Assembly (NCBI GenBank): GCA_013178285.1
Contig: JABLXD010000009.1
Location: 1-52,528 of the forward strand
From: Methanofastidiosum sp.
GTDB lineage: Archaea > Methanobacteriota_B > Thermococci > Methanofastidiosales > Methanofastidiosaceae
DNA: 52,528 nucleotides
Direction: 5' to 3'
Shown here piece by piece: positions 32,859 to 41,572 of this stretch. A program made the translations under genes and the position numbers. How positions within the stretch are numbered: position 1 is the first letter of the stretch; every line of letters starts with the position of its first letter. The notes under the pieces were generated by a model. That model was not told where the DNA came from, searched no databases, and saw nothing but the letters and a program-made list of their open reading frames with translations.

Positions 32859-33253
32859 TGCCAAAAGAAGGTGGAAGATGGGGAGTAGCCCATATATATG
32901 CTTCATATAACAATACTCTAATTCATATAACAGACCTAACGGGTGCTGAAACTATAAGTAGAGTTTCAGGCGGTATGATCGTTAAAACAGGTAAAGATGA
33001 ATCATCCCCTTATGCTGCAATGAAAGCAGCAGCTAAAGCAGCTGAAGAAGCTATAGAGAAGGGAGTAGTAGCTGTCCACATAAGAGTTAGGGCGCCAGGC
33101 GGAAACAAAGCAAAGACCCCAGGCAGAGGAGCTCAAGCAACTATCAGGGCTCTTACTAGAGCGGGACTTAGAATTGGAAAAATTGAGGATGCTACACCTA
33201 TACCTCATGATGGTACAAGAGCCAAAGGGGGCAAGAGAGGTAGAAGAGTATAA
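32858..33253 (+). CDS. rps11: 30S ribosomal protein S11 (uS11)
   Basis: A 131-residue S11: [38 protein letters not shown] and the C-terminal [17 protein letters not shown]. It lies on the 30S platform near the mRNA exit. One-base overlaps link it with S4 and rpoD. Confidence 0.97.
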
Positions 33254-34038
33254 TGGAAATTGAGATTTTCAAAAAAGACGAAAGAGAATTAAGATTTCTG
33301 GTCAGAGGAGTATCTGTACCATTGGTCAACGCCTTGAGACGTATTTTTATTTCAGAAATGCCTTCAATGGCAGTCGACTATCTTAAATTTTATAAAAATA
33401 ATTCTCCAGTTTTTGATGAAATAATCGCACATAGGGTAGGATTAATTCCATTAAATAATGCATCTGAAATCTATATATCTCCTGAAGAATGCGGGTGTAA
33501 TGAAGGGTGTGAAAAATGCTCAGTTACTTTATCTCTTGAAAAAACAGGCCCATGCACCGTTTACTCAAGAGATTTAGTTTCTGGAGATCCAGATATACAT
33601 CCAATTCTTGAAGACATACCAATTACTAAACTCGGTGAGGGGCAAGAATTAAAATTTGATGCCATAGCAAGAATTGGAACCGCAGAAGATCATGCAAAAT
33701 GGCAGATAGCAAATGCAGGTTATAAATATATTCCTAAGATTGATTTGAATTTAGATAAATGTGATATATGCGAAGAATGTGTTCCTAAATGCCCCAAAGA
33801 TATTCTTTACAAGGAAAAAGATCAAATTAAAGTTAAAGATATTTATGAATGCACAATGTGTAGAGCCTGTGAAGAAGCCTGTGAACAAGGAGTTATTAAA
33901 ATATCTTATGAAAATGACGCATTTATATTCTTTGTAGAATCTTATGAAAATATGAATGCTAACGAATTAGTTTCAAAAGCTTTGGACATGCTGTCAACAA
34001 AATTGGACAATTTGAAAAGTCTAGTTGAAAAGATTTGA
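33253..34038 (+). CDS. rpoD: DNA-directed RNA polymerase subunit D with two 4Fe-4S motifs
   Basis: A 261-residue Rpb3/alpha-like subunit that dimerises with RpoL to begin polymerase assembly. The RFLVRGVSVPLVNALRRIFISEMP dimerisation region is at the N-terminus. The inserted ferredoxin-like domain has two complete quartets, C170/C173/C176/C180 and C200/C203/C206/C210, so two [4Fe-4S] clusters are likely. A further CGCNEGCEKC group lies at 80-89. Many archaeal RpoD proteins keep only one or no cluster. It ends three bases before tRNA-Leu. Confidence 0.96.
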   Translation: MEIEIFKKDERELRFLVRGVSVPLVNALRRIFISEMPSMAVDYLKFYKNNSPVFDEIIAHRVGLIPLNNASEIYISPEECGCNEGCEKCSVTLSLEKTGPCTVYSRDLVSGDPDIHPILEDIPITKLGEGQELKFDAIARIGTAEDHAKWQIANAGYKYIPKIDLNLDKCDICEECVPKCPKDILYKEKDQIKVKDIYECTMCRACEEACEQGVIKISYENDAFIFFVESYENMNANELVSKALDMLSTKLDNLKSLVEKI

Positions 34039-34725: not shown

Positions 34726-36735
34726 TTAATCTAGTCCAAATAGCTTCCGTATATTATCTAAAAAACCGGGATTACTTTTTTCTTCAATATTTTTTTGATA
34801 GTTAATATCGACAGAATAAAGGACATTTGGCGACTCAGAAGGTGATTTTATAATTTCATTGCCTGTATCTAATTCAAAATAATAGAATAACTTATTCCTT
34901 CCTGAAGGATCTACTTCACTTAAGTAGCTATTATTCCCTTCATTATTCATCTTTAGAATGAAAAAAGAACTGTTTGATTCATCATATTTGTAATATAAAT
35001 AGACATTTGATGCATTAATGTCTTCTAGTTTCATTGATATCGTGATAAACTTAGAGCTATTTACATCTTCAGGGGTCGTGTTTAATATCAAACTTCTTTC
35101 AGAATCAAGCATTTCTTGATTTACATTTCTGTAAAATTTCTTACTGGCAATGTTATTATTTTTATTAGTCTCATTAATCTTGTTTTCTTCATCGATAGAT
35201 ACAATAACTTCCCCATTATTTTTAGTTGGGACAAACCTAATACTTTCTTCAACTATTTCTTCTGGGTCTAAAGAAAGATATATTTTTTCTATAAATATAT
35301 TATTAGAACTATTATTATCTTTTTCATAAAAAGTAACTGAAAAATCTTCTACTCTAGTACCGCTCTTGTTTTTTATTTTGGCTTTAACAGTAAGAAATTC
35401 GTTTTCTTGTTCTTCAATAGTAATATAATATGGGTATATCAGTAAATCAATATCTTTATTGGTTTTCACATTATTTTGAGCCGTAACTGAACTGTTTTCT
35501 CTTTTCATTACCCTTATGTTGAAATTAATATAGTTATTAGATTTTGATATTTCATCAATAATGTTTTCAGGATCAACTCTGATTTCTATGCTATATTCGC
35601 CTGGGTCCGTGAATGTAAGATATAAAGACATATCTATGTAAGAAGAAGATAAAAGCTGATTTATATTTGAAGATGATTTAAGGTTGCCATTTACATAAAC
35701 TTTAACTGGAACTTCAAAAGCAGTTGACTTCCCAATGTTTCTTATCCTAAATGAAACTAAAGAAGAAGTCCCTTGGTATACGTTTTGGGAGTAGGATAGC
35801 TCACTATTAGAGAGGTATAAGTCTGATTTACCGCTTGTTGTAGGTGGTGCAGTATTATTTACTGTTTCTTCTGTACCATTTTGCTTTGATGTCGACTTTA
35901 TTGAGAGGGAATAAGTTTCTATATTGTTATTTTCGTTCTCTTCTTCAATTTCATTGTTGTAATCCACAATAAAATATAATGTATAACTTCCTTCTGAAGG
36001 GAGCGTCCAATTAAAATTGGCAGTTATGCTTTGTCCTGCATAGAGTGAAGAAATATTTACTTTTCCTAAAAAATTTCCTTTTTCTGGCAATCCTTCAAAA
36101 ACAGCAAATACAAATTTTCCGGCATTTTTCTTACCTGAATTATTTAGCGTTATTTTCATGGATATTGGTTTTAAAGATTCAGTTTGTCCAGAATAATCTA
36201 TACTTTTTATTGTTAGATCAGGTTTTCCTTGTGAGTCTTGAGATTGAGTATTTGAGGGAGTCACCAAATTTCCTGCCTGTGTTCCAAAAAGTTGAGTTAT
36301 CATTTTTCCATATGGCCCACCATCAACTATACCTATTCCTACCTCTTTGTAGGCTGAATTTAAGATATTTGTTCTATGAGAAGGGCTACCCATAAGAGAA
36401 GAATGGCCTGCATCTATTGAGGGATTTCCACAAATATTTTCGGCCAATGCAATGAAATTATATCCTGCATTTCTAGCCCTATCTGAAGGGGCTAGGCCAT
36501 CAGGATTTACATGATTGAAGAAATTCCTATTAATCATGTCCTGGCTGTGGAGTCTTGCAGCATTAGAAAGAGCTGAATTCATGGTAAGGGGCTCAAGGCC
36601 TTGTGATTGCCGTTCATTATTAATTAGATTAAGCATATAATATTCTTCAGAACTATCTGAATATATTGCAGGCATCGCCCCTAGTATAAGTATTGCCAAA
36701 ATAGGGGGCAATAGGAATCTCCTATAATCACCCAT
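34726..36735 (-). CDS. secreted CAP (SCP/TAPS) domain protein with CARDB-type repeats
   Basis: A 669-residue protein with a signal-like hydrophobic N-terminus (residues 6-24). Residues about 33-155 are a CAP domain: NNERQSQGLEPL, H63, NHVNPDGLAPSDRA, ALAENI (E99) and PSHRTN (H120), the cavity residues of bacterial-type CAP proteins. Then come about four beta-sandwich repeats of about 110 residues beginning PDLTIKSIDYSG, of the CARDB/DUF11-like adhesion type, with many N-x-S/T sites. It should be extracellular or wall-associated. Its function is unknown. No C-terminal membrane anchor is obvious. Confidence 0.85.
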   Translation of the reverse strand: MGDYRRFLLPPILAILILGAMPAIYSDSSEEYYMLNLINNERQSQGLEPLTMNSALSNAARLHSQDMINRNFFNHVNPDGLAPSDRARNAGYNFIALAENICGNPSIDAGHSSLMGSPSHRTNILNSAYKEVGIGIVDGGPYGKMITQLFGTQAGNLVTPSNTQSQDSQGKPDLTIKSIDYSGQTESLKPISMKITLNNSGKKNAGKFVFAVFEGLPEKGNFLGKVNISSLYAGQSITANFNWTLPSEGSYTLYFIVDYNNEIEEENENNNIETYSLSIKSTSKQNGTEETVNNTAPPTTSGKSDLYLSNSELSYSQNVYQGTSSLVSFRIRNIGKSTAFEVPVKVYVNGNLKSSSNINQLLSSSYIDMSLYLTFTDPGEYSIEIRVDPENIIDEISKSNNYINFNIRVMKRENSSVTAQNNVKTNKDIDLLIYPYYITIEEQENEFLTVKAKIKNKSGTRVEDFSVTFYEKDNNSSNNIFIEKIYLSLDPEEIVEESIRFVPTKNNGEVIVSIDEENKINETNKNNNIASKKFYRNVNQEMLDSERSLILNTTPEDVNSSKFITISMKLEDINASNVYLYYKYDESNSSFFILKMNNEGNNSYLSEVDPSGRNKLFYYFELDTGNEIIKSPSESPNVLYSVDINYQKNIEEKSNPGFLDNIRKLFGLD

Positions 36736-37302: not shown

Positions 37303-37860
37303 TTATTCAACTCCATTTTCAAGGTACTTTGCCATGATTTCAAGAGTTTTGCCCCTATGAGAATATTTATTTTTCTCAATAGTAGTCATTTCTCCAAATG
37401 TTTTTGAGGTTCCTTCGGGAATGAATATTGGATCATATCCAAATCCTCCTTGACCTCTTATTTCATTTGAGATAGTGCCCCTAGATATGCCTTCAAATAT
37501 ATGTGGGCCATTCATATATAGGCCCACGGTAGATTTGAAGTATGCACTTCTATTGTTTGAATTCAACAGAAGCTTTAGGATGCCCTCGTTTCCAAGGGTT
37601 TCATGGACATACCTTGAGTACGGTCCAGGAAAGCTGTTTAGTTCTTCTATGAACAGTCCCGAGTCTTCTAAAAAGAAGGGACTTTTAAGGCTTTCGCTAC
37701 AAAAATCAATCCCAAATAAGGCTATTTCCTTAAGATCTGAAGCTTGAATTTCTGGATATCCAATATTTGCTTGAATAAGTTCAACATCAATATGTTTCAG
37801 TTTTTCTCTGGCTTCTTTGAATTTTCCACTGTTGCCAGTGATAAAATATAATTCTTCCAT
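37303..37860 (-). CDS. XTP/dITP diphosphatase (HAM1/RdgB family)
   Basis: It hydrolyses non-canonical purine nucleoside triphosphates (dITP, XTP) to monophosphates and so cleans the nucleotide pool. The 185-residue protein has the N-terminal FITGNSGKFKEA loop, LEDSGLFIEELNSFPGPYSRYV and the C-terminal GFGYDPIFIPEG, FGEMT and KNKYSHRG motifs. I use ATG 37860 (MEELYFITGN); the in-frame ATG at 37932 lies beyond the divergent promoter and inside the FtsZ-like gene. The message is probably leaderless. Confidence 0.93.
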   Translation of the reverse strand: MEELYFITGNSGKFKEAREKLKHIDVELIQANIGYPEIQASDLKEIALFGIDFCSESLKSPFFLEDSGLFIEELNSFPGPYSRYVHETLGNEGILKLLLNSNNRSAYFKSTVGLYMNGPHIFEGISRGTISNEIRGQGGFGYDPIFIPEGTSKTFGEMTTIEKNKYSHRGKTLEIMAKYLENGVE

Positions 37861-37909
37861 AAACTTACAAACAATAACCCTTATAAAAAAATATCTTAAA
37901 AAAACTTTA

Positions 37910-38839
37910 ATGGGCCAGTCTAAGAAGGACACAGATTCTCAGAAACTTAAGATCATGGTTATAGGAATCGGAGAAGAGAGTTTTAAAATATTAGAATCTA
38001 AACCTCAAAATCTTGACTTGAAAACTCTAGCGATTGGATACGACAAAGAAAGATTAAAATTTTTAAAAACAGAAAAGAAATTTTTTATAAATGACACGTT
38101 AAAAAATAAAATTGATTATTCAGAAAACATTCAAGATTTATCGAAGGTCGCTTCAAAAGTTGGAGAAGAGTTTAGTGGATTTTTTAGTATAGCAAATATT
38201 GTTTTTGTTTTGACTGATCTATCTGATATAAATATTAAGTTAGCTTCAATTCTACTTAAATTGGCAAAGGATAGTAAAGCTGTGCCTATTCCCGTAATAA
38301 AGGCAGATGATGTACTTAACGTGGGTAAAGAAATTTCAAAAGAGAAATTTTCTGAATTGAAAAAATATTCAAATTCTTACATTATAAGGGAAGATGAACA
38401 ACGAACAGTATTTTCAAGAGGATTCTCTCCTTTTTGGGAAAAGATTGAAGGATTGTATCTATCCCTTGCACTTCCGAGTCTTGTTAATATTGATTTTGCC
38501 GACTTTAGAACTGTTATAAATAAAGGCGGAGCATGCTATATCGGGGTAGGTGAAGGTAAGGGGGATAATAAGACAATTAATTCCTATGAAAGTGCATTAA
38601 AATCTAAATTTGATTTAGAACTAGAAGATGTTAATGGTGCGCTTATTAATATAATTGGAAACAAAGATTTGGCTTTAAAAGAATCAACAAATGTAACTGG
38701 CCACATAGAGGAAAGAATACATAAAAATGCAGAAATAATCTGGGGTGTATCTCTAACAGATAACTCTCCAGACATTCTTAAAGTTGTTATTGTCCTGACG
38801 GGAGTAACTTATCCCGAATTGGAGGAGTATTTACCTTAA
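37910..38839 (+). CDS. divergent FtsZ/tubulin-superfamily protein lacking the GTP-binding loops
   Basis: The C-terminal half of this 309-residue protein is clearly FtsZ: T7 loop LVNIDFADFRTVINKGG (191-207), GACYIGVGEG, VNGALINIIGNKDLALKE and NAEIIWGVSL. The N-terminal half keeps the layout (MVIGIG at 16-21, IANIVFVLTD at 94-103), but the T1 loop lacks the GGxGxN pattern and the T4 tubulin signature GGGTGTG is replaced by LTDLSDINIKLA. GTP binding is therefore unlikely, while the T7 loop that triggers hydrolysis in the neighbouring subunit is kept. The start ATG 37910 gives a leaderless message divergent from HAM1. It overlaps the convergent lipoprotein gene by 4 bases. A role in division or the cytoskeleton is inference. 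Confidence 0.8.
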   Translation: MGQSKKDTDSQKLKIMVIGIGEESFKILESKPQNLDLKTLAIGYDKERLKFLKTEKKFFINDTLKNKIDYSENIQDLSKVASKVGEEFSGFFSIANIVFVLTDLSDINIKLASILLKLAKDSKAVPIPVIKADDVLNVGKEISKEKFSELKKYSNSYIIREDEQRTVFSRGFSPFWEKIEGLYLSLALPSLVNIDFADFRTVINKGGACYIGVGEGKGDNKTINSYESALKSKFDLELEDVNGALINIIGNKDLALKESTNVTGHIEERIHKNAEIIWGVSLTDNSPDILKVVIVLTGVTYPELEEYLP

Positions 38840-40122
38840 TTTACCTCTATTGCAGGTGCACTGGGCTTATCTTCTGGGATTGTAGGGATTAATATTTGTT
38901 GATCCATTAGTAATCTTACAACATCATCTAGAATTTTTCCTTTTTCTTCAATTTTGGCATCAGTAGCTTCACTTAGGGGCAGGTCTGGATCAATGTATAT
39001 CCATCCTTTGTTCCTAATTCCAAATTGGTCATATAAGTAGTTAATGTCTGAAACATTAGTTTTGTCGCTATAGAAATCAATTACAGCTTCAAATGGATAA
39101 TATTTGTCTGCGCCATAGTGCCTGTAAACATATGGTCCTGAGATCACCCCTATGATTATACCATACTCTCCATCTTTTTTATAATCGTAAAGAACACACT
39201 CTTTATAGAAGTCTGTTGTAATTGGGTATTCTCCTGTATTCCTATACTCCTTTTCAAAATTAGAGAAATTTCTCCAAACTTGTGAATCATATTTGTATAT
39301 CCTTTTTACTTCGAATCCGTCTTGTTTGTCAAGATTCCAATAATCTTCACTTAAAGTTCCAGAAGTGTATCGACTCCACCTATCTAGTGTGCCGTCCTTT
39401 CCATCATCAATAAAGAAGGATTTTTCAAAAGGATCTTGCATAATCAAAGTTATGCTATCTGTAGTCATTTCATACTCAAAATCAGATTTGGCAGCTATAT
39501 CTATTAAGAATTTATTTTTATCAAATATCCTAAGTAGTAAATCTGCAATATTAATTGCATCAGTTGAAGCCTGAGGGAATTTAATTTCCATAAAATCTGA
39601 TATCTTTGGGGGAAGTTTATCCAAGTAGCTGTTGTAAAGCTCTTGCCTTTCTTTTGATTGAGCTTCTGTAGTTATAACGCTTAAAATGATTTCATTCAGT
39701 GTTGTTTTAGAGAAACTATCTTTAGAAATAAGATTATTCAATATTGAGTTTTTTTGATCTTCAGGGAATCCTCTATAATTTAGGTAATTTCTACAATATT
39801 CAAGATTCTCGGGTGTTTTAAGGTCAGATAATAATTCCCTATCTGTCACTGGGTCAATAATCATCATATTAAAGTCAAAATATCTTTTTGAGCCTTTAAA
39901 AGCTAGATCGACATAATAAATATCTCCCACTCTCTTGATTTTGCCTTCGCTAGTCTTTTGGTTTATATACGCTTCTCCAACGATGCCTTTCGCCTTCTCA
40001 AACTCATCTATTGAGAGCTTTGCTTCATATTCTCCCAAGTCTGACGATTGATTGGTACAACCTAAGAAAAATATTGAGATTGTAATCAAAACCAAAGTAG
40101 GATATGCCAAAATCTTATTTAT
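38836..40122 (-). CDS. lipoprotein of unknown function, probable ATA start
   Basis: About 428 residues. With an ATA start at 40122 the N-terminus reads MNKILAYPTLVLITISIFFLGC, a perfect lipoprotein signal with lipobox FLGC. ATA lies four bases after GGTGAT, the spacing used across this window. The only nearby canonical start is GTG 40131, inside the SD itself. The mature protein is rich in charged and aromatic residues with a C-terminal proline-containing tail; I do not recognise a family. Its SD and start lie inside the last codons of the upstream GT-C glycosyltransferase, so the two are translationally coupled and may act together at the membrane. Confidence 0.65.
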   Translation of the reverse strand: MNKILAYPTLVLITISIFFLGCTNQSSDLGEYEAKLSIDEFEKAKGIVGEAYINQKTSEGKIKRVGDIYYVDLAFKGSKRYFDFNMMIIDPVTDRELLSDLKTPENLEYCRNYLNYRGFPEDQKNSILNNLISKDSFSKTTLNEIILSVITTEAQSKERQELYNSYLDKLPPKISDFMEIKFPQASTDAINIADLLLRIFDKNKFLIDIAAKSDFEYEMTTDSITLIMQDPFEKSFFIDDGKDGTLDRWSRYTSGTLSEDYWNLDKQDGFEVKRIYKYDSQVWRNFSNFEKEYRNTGEYPITTDFYKECVLYDYKKDGEYGIIIGVISGPYVYRHYGADKYYPFEAVIDFYSDKTNVSDINYLYDQFGIRNKGWIYIDPDLPLSEATDAKIEEKGKILDDVVRLLMDQQILIPTIPEDKPSAPAIEVN

Positions 40123-41572
40123 AATTATCACCCCAGAATATGTACAGAGAGGTTTTACCTGTACTGTATAATTTATCAATTGAAGAAGCATTTAAATAGC
40201 TTTCACTATTTTTAAACTCTGCCGTTTCTCTAGGTCCAAGGTATGCATATTTTATATCATAATTATCTATAACGGTATGATTTCCAGAATAAAGGGCTTT
40301 TATGTCTTGACTTCTCTTGACATAGTCCCAGCTACCTGAGGCATACCCCCCTTCCACAGTTTTCAACCCTGAAATTTTACCGATTATAGGAGAATTAAAC
40401 CAAGACGAAGCAACTGTGAAATCCCCCGGAATAGAATTTTCACTTAGATATGAAAAGCTTGAATACTCCTCATTTACCAACATTGGCTTGACTTTTGAAA
40501 CATATTCTGCAGCTGGGAAAGAAGATATAATCATAATTCCAACAATTGCTGCAATAACTACTTCTTTTCTTTTATCTTTAGCAAATTCAAATATGGCATA
40601 AGAAGAATAAAAAGCAAGTGGATAGGCCAAAAATTCTAAGAATCTAAAGGGGAGAAGATCCAGACTTGCGATATAGTTTCTGGATAGAAGAAAAGACACC
40701 ATGCCCCAGGAAATTAACATTAAATCTTCTTCTCTCTTTCTTAGTATCAAGAATACTATTCCTGGCAAGGCTAAGGCCATAGTTATGTACCCTAATTTTA
40801 CCGGGTAGAATGATAGTTTGAATACTCCTCCATAGGGAATGTTTGATGCAATTCCATACCTCAGGAGCTGAATAATCCATGGGAAGGAGATAATAAGCGT
40901 TATTAAAGCAAATATTAAGAAATTATGGAGTTTAATTTCTCTTTTAGTAAAATATAAGAACAACGTGAACACTATAATTGATAAAAAGAATACAATAAAT
41001 GAAAGGCCGTGTGTATAAAAAATAGCTGAAGATATAATTCCAGAGACATACAAGTATTTCCTTTCTTTTAAACCTAAAAGGTATGTAAGAAGGCCTAGAG
41101 GAATCAATACTAATGCAAGAGATTGTGGCGAGGCTATTATTCCCCTATCAAGAGAGACTTGTATAACAAGTACAAAAAATGATGTTAGAAGACCTATTTC
41201 TTTTCCATAAAATTTATTTACAAATAAGAATGTTGATATTGCAGATAGTGGGAACAGTATTGCGGGCATTATCCTTGCAGCGTCCATAATAGATAATCCG
41301 GTAAGATTCAATATTTTGTATAATCCTAATAAAAGTAAATGGAAAAGTGGGGGATAGGTATGAATTCTCCCTTCAGGACCAAAAGAAACTGGATCAAAAG
41401 TAAAAAATCCATTTGAAAAGTTCTCCACAATTCTCATATGATACCATATATCCCATGATAAAGGATATTGAAATCTACCATAGAGAGGATATGTTTCACA
41501 CAATGCAAGTATTGTTATTAGGATTATTGGAATAAGAAAATACTTTATATTTTTTATTTCAGGCAATCCCAT
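40115..41572 (-). CDS. GT-C type membrane glycosyltransferase (PMT/AglB-like)
   Basis: A 485-residue protein with about 11 hydrophobic segments and a soluble C-terminal domain. After the first helix, a lumen-side loop holds SWDIWYHMR (39-47), resembling the acidic motif of STT3/AglB and PMT GT-C enzymes (D41 as likely catalytic or metal ligand), and YPPLFHLLLLG follows. These use lipid-phosphate sugars on the outer face of the membrane. It is too short for AglB and lacks WWDYG, so it is probably another surface-glycan or lipid glycosyltransferase. It overlaps the lipoprotein gene downstream. Confidence 0.7.
   Translation of the reverse strand: MGLPEIKNIKYFLIPIILITILALCETYPLYGRFQYPLSWDIWYHMRIVENFSNGFFTFDPVSFGPEGRIHTYPPLFHLLLLGLYKILNLTGLSIMDAARIMPAILFPLSAISTFLFVNKFYGKEIGLLTSFFVLVIQVSLDRGIIASPQSLALVLIPLGLLTYLLGLKERKYLYVSGIISSAIFYTHGLSFIVFFLSIIVFTLFLYFTKREIKLHNFLIFALITLIISFPWIIQLLRYGIASNIPYGGVFKLSFYPVKLGYITMALALPGIVFLILRKREEDLMLISWGMVSFLLSRNYIASLDLLPFRFLEFLAYPLAFYSSYAIFEFAKDKRKEVVIAAIVGIMIISSFPAAEYVSKVKPMLVNEEYSSFSYLSENSIPGDFTVASSWFNSPIIGKISGLKTVEGGYASGSWDYVKRSQDIKALYSGNHTVIDNYDIKYAYLGPRETAEFKNSESYLNASSIDKLYSTGKTSLYIFWGDNYK

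Follow-up and report, generated by a model that had tools for sequence, protein, structure and literature searches.

The window, by which we mean the whole 52,528-nucleotide stretch analysed here, comes from a genome assembly (2.1 Mb, 97% complete) of Candidatus Methanofastidiosum, an uncultured methanogenic group of archaea, and carries a gene for an FtsZ-like protein next to a divergently transcribed HAM1 gene, which serves as the marker of this locus within the genus:

37303..37860, minus strand: HAM1 (XTP/dITP pyrophosphatase), the divergent neighbour
37881..37886, plus strand: TTATAA element between HAM1 and the FtsZ-like gene, 29 bp upstream of the ATG (alignment of nine upstream regions)
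37910..38839, plus strand: FtsZ-like protein without a nucleotide site, 309 aa (ORF with ATG start, Pfam, orthologue alignment)
38528..38806, plus strand: FtsZ_C domain, PF12327 (Pfam)

The gap between HAM1 and the FtsZ-like gene is ~50 bp, and the TTATAA element within it is found upstream of all nine orthologues. Its spacing from the ATG suits a leaderless archaeal promoter, and the element is consistent with a putative promoter of this type. HAM1 is the divergent neighbour at 9/9 orthologue loci, and in the relatives with ORFs listed, HAM1 and the downstream genes are ordered as in the window. The FtsZ-like gene adjoins neither ftsZ1, ftsZ2 nor sepF, its neighbours being HAM1 and S15; the genome also encodes two canonical FtsZs (FtsZ1 and FtsZ2; G000:C12 and G000:C42) and SepF. 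The gene at 38836-40191 (minus strand), which is syntenic in the genus, converges on the FtsZ-like gene, and the two share 4 bases at their ends. Its product is a conserved protein of 451 aa that has no Pfam match and carries a lipoprotein-like segment close to the N-terminus. Elsewhere in the window lie genes for an RNA polymerase subunit D/Rpb3 with ferredoxin-like 4Fe-4S motifs (33253-34038, plus strand) and for a protein of 669 aa that looks secreted and contains a CAP (SCP-like) domain along with three CARDB stretches (34726-36735, minus strand).

Orthologues with 71-87% identity are present in nine of the ten Methanofastidiosum genomes. In the tenth (G003; 87% complete, 310 contigs) neither an FtsZ-like orthologue nor HAM1 was found, and because HAM1 is absent there too, that assembly most likely lacks the locus. 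No orthologue was found in 11 further genomes of the order, and when FtsZ_C and PF00091 matches were compared by their place in the genome, the nine orthologues were the only ones of 50 FtsZ_C places in 21 genomes of the order without an adjoining PF00091 match. In the sampled rest of the class, no place scored above 100 bits with either the query or an orthologue profile. HAM1 in the sister families is flanked by other genes, its neighbour apparently being a Bud32-like kinase ORF in two cases, and no FtsZ homologue lies beside it. Since orthologues were found only in the genus and the HAM1 flanks differ in sister families, the FtsZ-like gene appears either to have been gained at the level of the genus or to be a paralogue that was kept and greatly altered, in a location that has been rearranged.

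The initial annotation described the C-terminal half of the protein as a close match to FtsZ, and profile searches bear this out, with PF12327 matching at E 1.2e-19 (70.9 bits; cut-off 27) and also matching in 9/9 orthologues. The tubulin/FtsZ GTPase domain PF00091, by comparison, has no match at E<=10 in any of the nine, and the FtsZ equivalog model TIGR00065 reaches 92.7 bits over residues 6-302, far below its cut-off of 295.2. The protein is nonetheless alignable to FtsZ over its full length (in a phmmer search of PDB sequences, residues 11-300 matched M. jannaschii FtsZ at 3.3e-27), with ~30-38% identity to canonical copies in the C-terminal part but 14-20% in the N-terminal part. We also considered whether it is a CetZ; CetZ and other non-canonical archaeal tubulin-superfamily proteins are likewise extra paralogues beside FtsZ1/2 (PMC9856176). 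In CetZ, however, the N-terminal domain is conserved and Pfam recognises no C-terminal domain (PMC9871819); the pattern here (FtsZ_C present, PF00091 absent) is the reverse, and CetZ identity is ruled out.

AlphaFold2, supplied with an alignment of eight orthologues and two bacterial FtsZs, returned an FtsZ fold (pLDDT 85, pTM 0.87) with a Rossmann-like core, for which the best Foldseek matches in the PDB are FtsZ structures (TM ~0.76). Without the two bacterial rows the model is poor (pLDDT 50), and the modelled fold thus rests partly on the family information supplied.

Motif retention was scored against 32 canonical FtsZ copies for the set of nine orthologues, and the elements of the nucleotide site, all placed by alignment, are changed as follows:

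37946..37990, plus strand: S1 strand and degenerate T1, residues 13-27, LKIMVIGIGEESFKI; canonical GGAGNN
38090..38125, plus strand: lost T3 loop, residues 61-72, NDTLKNKIDYSE; canonical GKELTRGLGAGG
38198..38239, plus strand: lost T4 glycine loop, residues 97-110, IVFVLTDLSDINIK; canonical MVFVTCGLGGGTGTG
38297..38323, plus strand: lost T5, residues 130-138, IKADDVLNV; canonical TLPF.MEG

Strongly conserved columns are kept at 1/11 positions around T3, 5/15 around T4 and 3/19 around T5-H6, and the H5 arginine after T5, conserved in 100% of the 32 canonical copies, has no counterpart. The loss of the T4 signature and the degeneration of T1, both proposed from the window alone, hold throughout the family: T4 reads LTDLSDINIK where canonical copies have GGGTGTG, a motif found in 0/9 orthologues, and T1 is reduced to GIG(E/D)E (GIDDE in L034). 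An orthologue with an intact GGGTGTG would have pointed to a local error in the window; we looked for one and found none among the nine. That GTP or another nucleotide is still bound, through rewritten residues, is very improbable; the invariant G19, the mostly kept Asp of the NTD motif and the Rossmann-like core of the model are compatible with it, but G21 is only mostly kept (D in L034), the T3, T4 and T5 motifs have gone, SPFWEK stands in place of the start of H7, and the orthologue alignment shows no conserved glycine or basic motif that would compensate. The alignment shows the nucleotide face to be gone, and the protein is, as predicted from its motifs, a pseudo-GTPase paralogue of FtsZ fixed in Methanofastidiosum.

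The opposite face is retained. In FtsZ, the T7 loop, the H10 N-loop and S9 form the C-terminal side of the longitudinal contact (PMC5414002), and their counterparts lie in the second half of the gene, behind a rewritten H7 (invariance is among the nine orthologues):

38426..38470, plus strand: rewritten core helix H7 with lineage-specific motif SPFWEKIEGLYLSLA, residues 173-187; 15/17 of columns 173-189 invariant
38477..38518, plus strand: intact T7 catalytic loop SLVNIDFADFRTVI, residues 190-203; 14/14 invariant
38657..38695, plus strand: loop and H10 N-terminus, GNKDLALKESTNV, residues 250-262; 12/13 invariant; longitudinal contact, C-terminal side
38729..38755, plus strand: S9 strand AEIIWGVSL, residues 274-282; 9/9 invariant; longitudinal contact, C-terminal side

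As the initial annotation had it, the T7 loop is kept: NIDFADFRTV is unchanged in 9/9 orthologues, and 7/9 canonical columns are retained, including N193, D195 and D198. By alignment these three residues correspond to N208, D210 and D213 of S. aureus FtsZ (SaFtsZ), which keep the catalytic water in place and extend to the GTP of the neighbouring subunit (PMC8936486). At the level of sequence, the combination of a lost GTP site and a kept T7 loop therefore extends across the lineage, in all nine orthologues. Together, T7, the H10 N-loop and S9 are invariant at 35/36 positions, versus 64/96 in the rest of the region; equal or better conservation arose in 29 of 20,000 random three-block placements and in 1/132 rotations (only the true one), with element borders that were drawn by homology once the alignment had been seen, rather than from a structure of the protein itself. 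Within H7 and the C-terminal domain, conservation also extends beyond these elements to SPFWEKIEGL, a GKG at 216-218 and the rest of H10, so that folding or other surfaces may be under selection as well.

One reading of such conservation is that the C-terminal half of FtsZ has been repurposed outside FtsZ filaments, for example as an adaptor, with T7 kept for folding or for a new partner. The invariant lineage-specific motifs SPFWEKIEGLY, STNVTGHIEE and YPEL, which differ from canonical FtsZ, and a locus that adjoins HAM1 and S15 rather than division genes would fit this, but the catalytic Asn and both Asp are unchanged even though the protein's own nucleotide site is gone, and we consider repurposing somewhat unlikely.

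Pairwise dN/dS of the FtsZ-like gene is ~0.053 (Nei-Gojobori), a value that is approximate because dS is near saturation; FtsZ1 and FtsZ2 of the genus have ~0.017. A pseudogene, or a sequencing or assembly error, is ruled out with near certainty by open frames in nine assemblies, by dN/dS of ~0.05 and by the conserved upstream element. Constraint is uneven along the protein, with dN of 0.142 in residues 1-170 versus 0.052 in residues 171-309. Unlike the FtsZ-like protein, canonical FtsZ1/FtsZ2 show almost no conservation gap between domains, their identity in the genus being 0.957/0.978 in the GTPase domain and 0.978/0.991 in H7 and the C-terminal domain. The T7/H10/S9 face is under very strong purifying selection. 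Another reading is that the protein is a non-hydrolysing structural subunit that copolymerises inside filaments, or forms a heterodimer with one FtsZ, through a nucleotide-free replacement contact. An N-terminal domain is still present, has an FtsZ-like fold in the model and includes invariant residues (ANIVF, GY.K..L.FLK); however, the contact residues of T1, T3, T4, T5 and H5 are lost, and the domain drifts, with 49/162 columns invariant, which is unexpected for a second filament face. We regard a structural role of this kind as unlikely.

Conservation of the T7 face fits a filament-end partner. Adjacent FtsZ subunits jointly form each GTPase site, the T7 loop of one acting on GTP bound by its neighbour, and in current models the T7-exposing end of the filament grows while the nucleotide-face (minus) end shrinks (PMC8936486). 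We propose, with slightly less than even confidence, that the protein serves as a pseudo-subunit whose T7 face docks on FtsZ1 or FtsZ2 where their nucleotide face carries GTP. The docking target would be either a free GTP-FtsZ monomer or the exposed nucleotide face at the minus end of a filament, and the docked protein would supply the Asn-Asp-Asp that completes GTP hydrolysis. Having no nucleotide face of its own, it would take no further subunit, so that annealing and extension would be blocked on that side, and GTP-FtsZ monomers would be sequestered or turned over in a GAP-like manner. A more specific version, in which FtsZ itself gave rise to this half-interface form, dedicated to capping the minus end and activating the GTPase of FtsZ1 or FtsZ2, is offered tentatively, as a possibility. 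Severing is less likely than either capping or triggered hydrolysis, because internal nucleotide faces are occupied and a T7-only subunit would reach only an exposed face or a free GTP-bound monomer. The protein ends 10 residues past the core (YPELEEYLP) and has no C-terminal tail of the anchor-binding kind, and the N-terminal extension of the genome's canonical FtsZs is missing; it therefore probably acts from the cytosol, as a regulator of FtsZ assembly. FtsZ1, FtsZ2 and SepF of the same genome are its possible partners.

The protein resembles archaeal FtsZ1/FtsZ2 in FtsZ_C, the T7 motif NxDFAD, the S9 motif IIWG, full-length alignability and, in the model supplied with bacterial FtsZ rows, fold, and differs from them in lacking the GTP site, the N-terminal extension and the C-terminal tail, and in failing the TIGR00065 cut-off. 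By its sequence it is best classed as a non-GTPase paralogue of FtsZ. The proposed effect, with one FtsZ face blocked, is like that of the FtsZ assembly inhibitors MciZ (Bacillus subtilis) and SulA, which are not FtsZ homologues. MciZ binds the bottom (T7-side) face of FtsZ (PMC8936486), whereas the FtsZ-like protein would itself present a T7-side face and attach to the nucleotide face, on the other side of FtsZ. Misato/DML1 and FtsZ-like Tubulin_2 proteins are also divergent FtsZ/tubulin relatives (PMC9871819), but by description have other domains and lineages. The pattern seen here is absent from the portions of archaeal FtsZ/CetZ papers retrieved by open-access term searches. Nor did we find an open-access paper joining FtsZ with Methanofastidiosum, or FtsZ paralogues with pseudoGTPase, in agreement with the earlier suggestion that no archaeal FtsZ-family member with this loss has been described, most subscription journals being outside this scope.

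FtsZ filament polarity and end dynamics are still debated, and a natural subunit with only the catalytic face would be a ready-made reagent to mark or block one filament end; it would also show how an FtsZ duplication can give rise to an FtsZ regulator. For annotation, an FtsZ_C match in an archaeal genome does not by itself mean a polymerising FtsZ.

In trees, the nine orthologues form one fully supported clade whose stem is very long, at 4.3 changes per column, and is placed with modest support (94/78; 90/72) beside third FtsZ copies of family f2 (L064, L065 and L066), and long-branch effects are likely. These third copies have an intact GGGTGSG and may be related paralogues; that they are T4-intact orthologues is not supported, given the other locus of the L064 copy, the modest tree support and the very long stem. 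The L064 copy is possibly a relative of the parent of the FtsZ-like protein; for the parent paralogue, the FtsZ2 side is tentatively favoured. We note that the third FtsZ at L064:6957-7940 (genome G010) lies beside FtsZ1 and FtsZ2 and ends right after the core, with no C-terminal tail.

A viral origin was rejected, two scans of viral contigs having yielded no relative; a viral fold search matched phage FtsZ/tubulin-like models (best E 1.8e-13, 8-15% identity), far more weakly than cellular FtsZ. Five matches in plasmid and phage collections were examined, and all have an intact GGGTGTG. A Halanaeroarchaeum sulfurireducens plasmid (NZ_CP011565.1; L114:44-1423) encodes an FtsZ fused to a ribbon-helix-helix-like N-terminal segment, in which GGGTGTG is intact and T7 is altered (VDIDFGDFKTV for NxDFAD), nearly the opposite loss to that of the FtsZ-like protein. 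On a Salinibaculum plasmid (NZ_CP129994.1; L115), ftsZ lies directly downstream of a CopG/ribbon-helix-helix gene, recalling the haloarchaeal cdrS-ftsZ2 arrangement.
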